This document shows, piece after piece, positions 10,524 to 11,724 of a DNA stretch of 11,724 bases. The notes below the pieces were generated by a model that searched no databases, had not been told where the DNA came from, and was given only the letters and a program-made list of their open reading frames with translations. How positions within the stretch are numbered: position 1 is the stretch's first letter; the number at the start of each line of letters is the position of its first letter. The position numbers and the translations under genes are program-made. This DNA comes from Candidatus Kerfeldbacteria bacterium. GTDB lineage: Bacteria > Patescibacteriota > Patescibacteriia > SBBC01. The DNA lies in the NCBI GenBank assembly GCA_903854795.1, contig CAINXF010000083.1, positions 1 to 11,724 on the forward strand, written 5' to 3'.

Positions 10524-10552
10524 TTGACGCAGGTTGGATGTGGTCCTAATAT
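10524..10552 (+). promoter_or_regulatory. Promoter of the CsoR-like/thioredoxin operon
   Basis: TTGACG (10524-10529) and TAATAT (10547-10552) are 17 nt apart. The -10 overlaps the left end of the palindromic operator, so a bound repressor would block RNA polymerase. The start site would be near 10559, about 11 nt before the ATG. Confidence 0.7.
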
Positions 10553-10569
10553 ACCCCCAGGGGGTATAT
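10549..10569 (+). promoter_or_regulatory. CsoR-type operator (autoregulatory)
   Basis: A perfect palindrome with arms ATATACCCCC (10549-10558) and GGGGGTATAT (10560-10569) around a single A. This is the form known for CsoR-family repressors (TACCC...GGGTA). It overlaps the -10, covers the expected start site and touches the ATG at 10570. The right half (GGGGG, 5 nt before the ATG) is the only purine-rich element that could serve as a ribosome binding site. Confidence 0.88.
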
Positions 10570-10839
10570 ATGGCCACTTCACCGAAACCACAACGCGCTT
10601 CCCGCACGCTTTCCGCACGGATCCATAAACTGTCCGGACAGCTCGACGCGATCGACCACATGGTCATGCGTCGCCGTTCCTGCGCAGAGGTGCTCGCTCA
10701 GATCGAGGCGGTCCGCTCGGGGCTCGCCGGCGTCGCCGCGATCCTCCTGAACGAAGAGCTCTCGAAGATGATAAGGAAAAAGCACGTCGATCCCCGCGCG
10801 ATCGTCGCCCTCACTCGCACAATAATCGAACGAACATAA
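10570..10839 (+). CDS. CsoR/RcnR/FrmR-family (DUF156) transcriptional repressor with altered ligand residues
   Basis: An 89-residue all-helical repressor. The first helix (RTLSARIHKLSGQLDAIDHMV, about 12-32) and the block RRSCAEVLAQIEAVRSGLAGV (35-55) are diagnostic of the family. These proteins form tetramers that leave the operator when they bind Cu(I), Ni/Co or Zn, or when a cysteine reacts with persulfide or formaldehyde. In M. tuberculosis CsoR the copper ligands are Cys36, His61 and Cys65. The matching positions here are Cys38, Glu63 and Met67, so only the first cysteine is kept, and there is no second cysteine for a CstR-type disulfide. The inducer is therefore unclear. I start at ATG 10570; a TTG at 10534 would place the -10 and operator inside the coding region. 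The next gene, thioredoxin, follows after 18 nt with a strong ribosome binding site, so it is a likely target. Confidence 0.9.
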   Translation: MATSPKPQRASRTLSARIHKLSGQLDAIDHMVMRRRSCAEVLAQIEAVRSGLAGVAAILLNEELSKMIRKKHVDPRAIVALTRTIIERT

Positions 10840-10857: not shown

Positions 10858-11184
10858 ATGGCCGAACACGTATTGACCGACAAGAATTTCGACGACGAGG
10901 TCATGAAGGAAGCATCAATGCCGGTCCTGGTCGATTTTTGGGCGACCTGGTGCGGCCCATGCAAAGTGCAGAAGCCGGTGATCGACGAGCTTGCGAAGCA
11001 GTACGACGGTAAGGTGAAGATCGGCGCGATGGAGGTCGACGAGAACCCGACCACGCCTCAGAAGTTCGGCATCCTGTCGATCCCGACGCTCATTCTGTTC
11101 AAGGGTGGCAAGGTCATCTGGCAGGGCATCGGACTTCACCAGAAACAGCAGTTGACCCAGGTGCTCGATAAGAACCTTTCGTAG
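10858..11184 (+). CDS. trxA: Thioredoxin
   Basis: A 108-residue single-domain thioredoxin of standard length. The redox motif W31-C32-G33-P34-C35-K36 is intact, Asp26 (the buried acid in VDFWATWC) and Pro40 are present, and the cis-proline is Pro76 in SIPTLILF. It reduces protein disulfides in the cytosol and is normally recharged by thioredoxin reductase. The residues after the motif read VQKP where MIAP or similar is common. It sits between a CsoR-like repressor and a thioredoxin-reductase-like gene that starts 5 nt after its stop, so all three are probably one operon under the repressor. The strong ribosome binding site suggests it is the main product. Confidence 0.97.
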   Translation: MAEHVLTDKNFDDEVMKEASMPVLVDFWATWCGPCKVQKPVIDELAKQYDGKVKIGAMEVDENPTTPQKFGILSIPTLILFKGGKVIWQGIGLHQKQQLTQVLDKNLS

Positions 11185-11189
11185 CACGC

Positions 11190-11724
11190 GTGACGTACGA
11201 TGTCATCATCGTCGGCGCAGGCGCCTCGGGACTGACTGCGGCATTGTTCGCCGCGCGTCGCGGCCTCGCGACGCTCGTCGTGTCGCAGGACGTTGGCGGC
11301 CAGGCGTCGATGGCGTCGGTCATCGAGAACTATCCCGGCGTCGATCCGATGAGCGGGACCGAGCTGATGGGCAAGTTCCGGTCACAGGCCGAACAGTACG
11401 GCGCGGAGCTGAAGTTCGGCGCGGTAAGCAACATCGCCCACAAGGGCGAAGACTTCAGGGTGACCACGGTACATGGGTCGTATGACACGCATGCGGTCAT
11501 CCTCGCGTTCGGCATGACGCATCGCCACCTCGGCATCCCAGGCGAAGCAGCCTTGATTGGCAAAGGCGTCAGCGTGCACGCGGTGTTCGATGCGCCGGCG
11601 TACGCAGGGAAGAATGTCGCGGTCATCGGCGGTGGCAATTCGGCGATCTGCACGGCGCTCATGCTCGCGGCACAGTGCCCGAAGGTCGAGCTGTTGACGG
11701 AAAATCCTGAACTCCGCGGCGAGA
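11190..11724 (+). CDS. Thioredoxin-reductase-like FAD flavoprotein lacking the redox CxxC (partial)
   Basis: The first 178 residues are in the window; the gene continues past the right edge. The FAD-binding loop G9-A-G-A-S-G14, GGQASMASVIENYPG (36-50), the ILAFG segment (104-108) and the second nucleotide-binding loop G147-G-G-N-S-A152 place it firmly in the low-molecular-weight thioredoxin reductase family. Where such enzymes have CATCD, just before the NAD(P) domain, this protein has HAVFD (130-134), so both redox cysteines are missing. Where NADPH-using members have HRRxxFR, it has TENPELR (170-176), and an acidic Glu171 lies at the end of the strand, which suggests NADH or no pyridine nucleotide. 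It starts with GTG 5 nt after the thioredoxin stop, with no in-frame ATG nearby and no clear Shine-Dalgarno site. It cannot reduce thioredoxin by the classical route; a ferredoxin/flavodoxin-linked or oxidase-like role is possible. Confidence 0.9.
   Translation, partial: MTYDVIIVGAGASGLTAALFAARRGLATLVVSQDVGGQASMASVIENYPGVDPMSGTELMGKFRSQAEQYGAELKFGAVSNIAHKGEDFRVTTVHGSYDTHAVILAFGMTHRHLGIPGEAALIGKGVSVHAVFDAPAYAGKNVAVIGGGNSAICTALMLAAQCPKVELLTENPELRGE

Follow-up and report, generated by a model that had tools for sequence, protein, structure and literature searches.

A thioredoxin reductase-like flavoprotein without redox cysteines beside thioredoxin in Candidatus Kerfeldbacteria, and its Cys-less counterparts in related genomes

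What becomes of a thioredoxin reductase that has lost the cysteine pair through which it serves thioredoxin, when its gene still lies directly beside a thioredoxin gene? In this enzyme, according to PMC5627308, electrons pass from NADPH to FAD, then to a CxxC motif, and from there to thioredoxin. The locus that raises the question closes contig C83 of genome G000, a 1.07-Mb Candidatus Kerfeldbacteria draft that is 97.6% complete; the window analyzed here is that entire contig, 11,724 bases in length (genomes, contigs, loci, and family groups carry our own G, C, L, and f numbers). A reading made from the letters of this DNA (hereafter, the sequence-only reading) had described a thioredoxin reductase-like flavoprotein without redox cysteines, fused in operon with a normal WCGPC thioredoxin, and had proposed that either another route recharges the thioredoxin or the flavoprotein performs different chemistry. 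The adjacency to a WCGPC thioredoxin held, but the fusion did not, as 5 bases separate the trxA stop codon from the flavoprotein gene (Table 1).

The flavoprotein gene runs off the contig, and the 178 residues encoded up to that point read GKGVSVHAVFDAPAYAGKNVAVIGGGNSA. Recovery of the rest of the gene had been suggested as a check, but the remainder was not found when G000 was searched with a full-length CATC relative, the matches being the C83 copy and a second copy on contig C58. The repressor that heads the operon has, by eye, a single cysteine and lacks the His/Cys pair of copper-sensing CsoR. Elsewhere on the contig (6806-7135, + strand) lies a gene for a small protein that matches PF01035 (79 bits), the O6-methylguanine-DNA methyltransferase DNA-binding domain. 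At the position of the acceptor motif PCHR, this protein has PWQR, as do alkyltransferase-like proteins; it is a second case on contig C83 of an active-site cysteine being replaced. A defence-family scan gave no match.

Table 1. Features of the thioredoxin-flavoprotein locus at the end of the window
Feature	Position	Strand	Basis or remark
Sigma-70-like promoter TTGACG-17-TAATAT, -10 overlapping the palindrome	10524..10552	+	9/12 consensus matches; 2 sites found vs 0.5 expected; weak by itself
Palindrome TATACCCCC-A-GGGGGTATA, candidate operator of the operon's own repressor	10550..10568 (21-base span 10549-10569)	+	1 site in window, 0 in 200 shuffles
CsoR/FrmR-type transcriptional repressor	10570..10839	+	PF02583
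trxA, thioredoxin, WCGPC	10858..11184 including stop	+	TIGR01068 above cut-off; sole PF00085 match found in the genome search of G000
Cys-less thioredoxin reductase-like FAD/NAD(P) flavoprotein, 5' part (178 codons)	11190..11724 (ORF 11190-11723)	+	GTG start; open at contig end
HAVF (residues 130-133), in place of the CATC redox motif	11577..11588	+	Alignment to CATC relatives
TEN (residues 170-172), in place of the NADPH-selecting HRR	11697..11705	+	Alignment; Glu171 = 11700-11702

The lost redox pair and the scaffold around it

Where the window protein carries HAVF, its nearest relatives (in G002 and G004) carry CATC, and the columns around this motif align to the CATC relatives without gaps. 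Hence, this is a substitution and not a misalignment, as the sequence-only reading had maintained. That reading was also right that the FAD and NAD(P) loops are kept: the FAD motifs GxGxxG, GGQ, and ENYPG are present as GAGASG, VGGQA, and IENYPG, and the dinucleotide loop GGGNSA is intact; the C-terminal FAD motif would fall past the contig end. Of the NADPH motif of TrxB (GGGxxA plus HRR), the protein thus has the loop but not HRR, whose replacement by TEN, with its Glu171, had been correctly reported. The tie that had been drawn between the loss of HRR and the loss of the cysteines broke down, in that all four CATC relatives from the window's order (G002, G004, G005, and G008) also lack HRR, which makes the two losses separate events. 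Outside the order, Cys-less proteins retain HRR in 10 of 12 cases and HR in 12 of 12, and the coupling is ruled out by both sets of proteins.

The best NCBIfam match of the window protein is TIGR01292, thioredoxin-disulfide reductase (residues 3-177, 173 bits for a partial protein, against a cut-off of 343.45). Five full-length Cys-less relatives score 268-295 bits, and the CATC relative in G002 also falls below the cut-off (326 vs 343). The best structure matches by sequence are likewise thioredoxin reductases. An AF2 model of the 178 residues, built with relatives fetched by our locus searches (mean pLDDT 82.7, with residues 124-129, just before HAVF, below 50) retrieved structures titled thioredoxin reductase at all of Foldseek ranks 1-39, at TM-scores of only 0.44-0.59 because the modelled piece is partial; the model adds only that the predicted fold is that of thioredoxin reductase.

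The loss is local. Of the positions shared by at least 90% of 71 CxxC relatives from outside the order, the window protein keeps 40 of 41 outside the Cys loop and 3 of 6 inside it, which indicates that the flavin/dinucleotide scaffold has been retained. At the same positions, the counts are 38-40 and 5-6 in the order's four CATC relatives, and 36 and 2 in its second Cys-less protein, from G009. At positions conserved in at least 80%, the window protein keeps 49 of 58 vs 53-54. Relative to its nearest relative in G002, its gene shows 48, 41, and 102 codon differences at positions 1-3 over 177 codons, mostly at the third position. These patterns bear on the concern, raised earlier as a sequencing error at 11577-11591, that a CxxC is concealed by a pair of mutually compensating frameshifts, real or artefactual, close to the end of the contig. 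A TGY-N6-TGY pair does lie in the +1 frame at the motif site, which is 136 bases short of the contig end, and 0.25% of codon shuffles place such a pair no more than 3 nt from it (P = 0.0025). However, hiding a CxxC in this way would take one insertion and one deletion separated by about 12 bases, the reading frame is conserved both before and after the site, and CxxC is also missing from 13 relatives in other genomes, such that we consider it highly improbable and, from these comparisons, regard the loss of the redox pair as confirmed.

Recurrence and number of origins

With a profile built from ten proteins (three of them Cys-less), we searched 380 genomes of the class; 370 of these gave a match, and the matches numbered more than 150. 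The rows of our alignment came from the top of the profile ranking (the 30 best loci and 80 further matches), together with loci from other searches (8 from one and 17 of 30 from another), so that counts of Cys-less proteins are not prevalences. The alignment comprises 158 distinct proteins from 138 genomes, 144 with CxxC and 14 without, the latter in six family groups. In the window's order, these are the window protein itself (HAVF; f1) and that of G009 (SVMS; f2). Outside of it, they comprise four f43 proteins (STAA in G049 and G185, SAAA in G082, and STAG in G134), one from f62 (TAYV in G105), two from f21 (SAVA in G067 and SAVD in G096), and five from f12, among which that of G089 retains the first cysteine alone (CNAH). 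The proposal that such a protein exchanges disulfides with thioredoxin is very unlikely for G009, whose protein is cysteine-free over all 327 residues, while the window part contains two cysteines that are not paired.

Other features of the family persist in these proteins. GGQ and ENYPG occur in all 14 Cys-less rows, and a DW tail, along with the second FAD motif, in all 13 that reach the C-terminus; a C-terminal W occurs in 76 of 112 CxxC rows of the same broad group and in none of 32 lower-scoring rows. At alignment column 19 (window residue 20), a Tyr-to-Phe change is seen in 9 of 14 Cys-less rows vs 8 of 143 CxxC rows (the latter in f29 and f51), and is clustered by kinship. When a Cys-less protein served as the query across the phylum, 275 of 286 genomes matched, and the best 30 loci, 29 of them from other classes, contained 38 reductase ORFs, two of which are Cys-less (G385 and G414). 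The G414 locus (L366), from another class, carries three thioredoxin reductase homologues in tandem, one Cys-less (STSA) and two with CxxC. Relatives without CxxC (ACTA and AATP) also occur on four IMG/VR contigs listed as viral (L173, L178, L190, and L181); these are distant and perhaps belong to another family.

Two trees address how often the cysteines were lost, namely, a large quick tree of 97 of the 158 rows, with the loop columns omitted, and a careful tree of 30 rows that includes 11 of the 14 Cys-less proteins. The quick tree shows three label changes: the window protein falls among f1 CATC proteins, the G009 protein beside that of G008 (f2), and the Cys-less proteins of f43, f62, f21, and f12 in one clade of 12 (SH-aLRT 95). 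The careful tree shows five label changes, at least four of them forced by starred branches; it lacks the clade of 12, and in it the G105 protein pairs with a CxxC protein of G148 (98/97). The four f43 proteins, which represent four genera and are all Cys-less, form one clade in both trees (99 in the quick tree and 100/100 in the careful one), and the five f12 proteins form one clade in the quick tree (97). In AU tests, one origin for all 14 was not rejected on the quick tree (p 0.118), while a single clade for all 11 Cys-less rows was rejected on the careful tree (p 0.0009). That the loss arose more than once is thus well supported by the phylogenies. Separate losses in the window protein and that of G009 are likely but not proven, with a grouping of the two not rejected on the careful tree (p 0.104).

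Known reductases, a second reductase, and the operon

The window protein resembles TrxB, the low-Mr bacterial thioredoxin reductase (TIGR01292), in its fold, FAD motifs, dinucleotide loop, GKG motif, and thioredoxin neighbour, and the trees place it among CATC members; it differs in having neither CxxC nor HRR, the absence of HRR being common to its CATC kin. Two other groups invite comparison. First, TrxR-like ferredoxin-NADP reductases (FNRs; BcFNR1/2 and BsFNR) share a thioredoxin reductase fold without CxxC, and have a C-terminal subdomain, as described in PMC10294844; in the window protein, any counterpart of this subdomain, which would stack on FAD, would lie past the contig end. Earlier work removed 639 Cys-less TrxR-like proteins from its thioredoxin reductase set as ferredoxin/flavodoxin reductases (PMC5627308). 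In kinship, however, our proteins fall on the thioredoxin reductase side of this comparison, which had been recommended earlier: the G049 protein scores 191 bits with the best thioredoxin reductase structure and at most 118 with any FNR, a comparison made through the structures' sequences, with the trees containing no FNRs. According to PMC5627308, the active-site box of FdR is completely unlike that of TR1 over its first 23 residues, whereas the proteins studied here retain the thioredoxin reductase sequence around the lost motif except in the loop. Second, TRi of Desulfovibrio and FFTR of clostridia and cyanobacteria are NAD(P)H-independent thioredoxin reductases that have lost HRR, and C. 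difficile FFTR genes share an operon with thioredoxin (PMC5627308, PMC10880999, and PMC9025218). These enzymes keep CxxC while their GGGxxA loop is degraded or lost, and the window protein shows the reverse. Specifically, TRi has TQ/NGK for HRRD, a degenerate GGGxxAxE, and CxxC, whereas the window protein has TEN, GGGNSA, and no CxxC. Hence, we would describe it as not a thioredoxin reductase by the function-defining feature and not an FNR by kinship, but as a new variant of the thioredoxin reductase scaffold. Searches of the open-licence PMC literature, including searches on CPR/Patescibacteria, brought up among the papers listed no description of a Cys-less thioredoxin reductase encoded in an operon with thioredoxin.

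A ferredoxin partner was also considered through the distribution of 2-oxoacid:ferredoxin oxidoreductase. POR_N was found in 1 of 9 Cys-less vs 16 of 24 CxxC genomes (Fisher p 0.007, without correction for kinship, although f43 supplies four of the nine), as well as in all three genomes without an operon reductase that make up the rest of the 36-genome set. Its rarity in Cys-less genomes is indirect evidence against the ferredoxin/FNR reading, and a ferredoxin partner is not favoured. Ferredoxin transfer and an NADH oxidase role, both raised by the sequence-only reading, may still apply.

The suggestion that G000 be searched for a second canonical reductase proved fruitful. Its one other thioredoxin reductase homologue, the copy on contig C58, has CATC and scores 381.7 bits with TIGR01292, above the cut-off. 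Among 60 genomes searched, a second match above 170 bits occurred in 9 of 9 Cys-less vs 18 of 51 CxxC genomes (Fisher p 0.0003, uncorrected for kinship), a count that covers 9 of the 14 Cys-less genomes; in the eight where the second copy was read (all but G089), it has CxxC. On independent pairs, the link reduces to two or three, too few for significance. Further, in G007, from the window's order, repressor, thioredoxin, and glutamate dehydrogenase genes stand in a row with no reductase between them (L339, 4336-6223), which suggests that the thioredoxin there manages without an operon reductase. For G001 and G003, of the same order (genomes 90-91% complete), the search gave no thioredoxin match. 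Most simply read, the window's thioredoxin is probably recharged by the enzyme encoded on C58, in line with the earlier proposal of another route.

The surroundings of the gene vary. Among genomes with at least 900 nt upstream of the reductase, a thioredoxin lies upstream in 75 of 105 CxxC and 7 of 14 Cys-less genomes and a csoR-like ORF in 30 and 3 of these, respectively; a site of the palindrome type was present at 21 of 39 csoR-like ORFs examined. On the downstream side, where 600 nt or more could be read, a gene for an aminotransferase or glutamate dehydrogenase (each named by Pfam in one genome and by phmmer elsewhere) lies no more than 250 nt away in 4 of 10 Cys-less genomes and in 20 of 36 with CxxC; over the full length fetched, the counts are 6 of 10 and 23 of 36, respectively. 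The gene order in f43 is thioredoxin, Cys-less protein, aminotransferase, and glutamate dehydrogenase (with an extra ORF between in G049, and with the G185 contig ending in the aminotransferase), and in f62 it is repressor, thioredoxin, Cys-less protein, and glutamate dehydrogenase. In f21, the Cys-less gene has no thioredoxin beside it and either adjoins glutamate dehydrogenase (G096) or sits about 0.7 kb from it (G067). In f12, neither thioredoxin nor glutamate dehydrogenase is near; the neighbour in G175 is an M17 aminopeptidase gene, and ORFs that look similar by eye occur in the others. PF00208 was not found in G000, G009, or G005, but the contigs of G000 and G009 stop at the reductase gene or shortly past it, such that the sole clean absence is that in G005, a CxxC genome that is 100% complete. 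Thus, the evidence linking cysteine loss to glutamate dehydrogenase is mixed. A thioredoxin pair within an amino-acid fermentation operon has a parallel in trxA3-trxB3 of the C. difficile glycine-reductase operon (PMC10880999), likened here by description and not by sequence, although the partner enzyme there is glycine reductase.

What the disulfide-less protein may do

With CxxC gone, the route from NADPH through FAD and CxxC to thioredoxin is closed, and the explanation that we rate highest, at about an even chance, is that a former thioredoxin reductase lost its connection with thioredoxin and was kept on as a flavoprotein whose acceptor is not a protein disulfide. Under this model, loss of the redox disulfide would have closed the known dithiol relay to the adjacent thioredoxin and, with it, thioredoxin reductase activity, while the C58 enzyme would have taken over recharging. 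The protein so relieved would be kept for its predicted binding of FAD and a dinucleotide, and would pass flavin electrons to some other acceptor, in a diaphorase- or oxidase-like role, within an operon that in many relatives also carries the amino-acid enzymes named above. The retained FAD and dinucleotide motifs, the invariant DW tail, and persistence in f43 and f12 argue that some flavoprotein function remains. The HRR of most Cys-less proteins outside the order makes NADPH their likely donor; in the window's order, the donor may be NADH, which Glu171 would fit, or something else.

The main rival, possible but on balance unlikely, is slow decay, in which the copy in the operon was no longer needed after the other reductase had assumed its task and the window captures one stage of its loss, with no new function. 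The order does hold a series that runs from CATC copies (G002, G004, G005, and G008) through Cys-less ones (G000 and G009) to a missing operon reductase (G007) and to genomes without a thioredoxin match (G001 and G003). The end branches of both Cys-less copies in the quick tree are also about doubled, at 0.53 for the window vs 0.15 and 0.2 plus a shared 0.089 in its CATC kin, and at 0.48 for G009 vs 0.26. For the second reductases of these genomes, counting the shared inner branches as well leaves no excess of this kind (0.31 vs 0.11-0.16 plus 0.12-0.23 for G000, and 0.31 vs 0.26-0.32 for G009). Some relaxation is likewise suggested by the conserved sites that G009 and, at the 80% threshold, the window have lost. 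Yet the window gene remains open over 178 codons with a third-position bias and keeps all but one of the conserved sites outside the loop, and Cys-less proteins persist in four f43 genera and in f12, all of which speaks against decay. The absence of the clade of 12 from the careful tree and the mere 36 of 41 sites kept in G009 weigh somewhat against the retained flavoprotein and towards decay.

A rather improbable proposal builds on the operon itself, whereby repeated disulfide loss within a repressor-controlled thioredoxin/aminotransferase/glutamate dehydrogenase operon would have given these small-genome bacteria a flavoprotein with a new role: instead of reducing thioredoxin, it would couple to the dinucleotide made by glutamate dehydrogenase, or sense it. 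It draws on the presence of the Cys-less gene near glutamate dehydrogenase in f43, f62, and f21, in the last case even without thioredoxin. Improbable, too, is a regulatory or mixed-dimer subunit, a Cys-less chain that would continue to contact thioredoxin or would dimerize with the second reductase, and would tune it without electron transfer of its own. GKG/GRG, a thioredoxin-binding motif according to PMC5627308, is present in 11 of 14 Cys-less rows, thioredoxin adjoins in 7 of 14, and the tandem arrangement in G414 would suit such pairing, but the residues that follow the motif drift from APLYK/GPLYK in CATC kin to APAYA, GPAFK, and NVSAA, and in f21 and f12 the Cys-less gene has no adjacent thioredoxin.

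Cys-less TrxR-like proteins are usually filed as ferredoxin or flavodoxin reductases, whereas the proteins described here lost their cysteines from inside the group of true thioredoxin reductases, and some of them are encoded next to a thioredoxin. This cautions against annotating by neighbour or by family score. Further, CATC copies, Cys-less copies, and a missing gene all occur in a single order, a natural series for asking what role a thioredoxin reductase scaffold may play without its disulfide.
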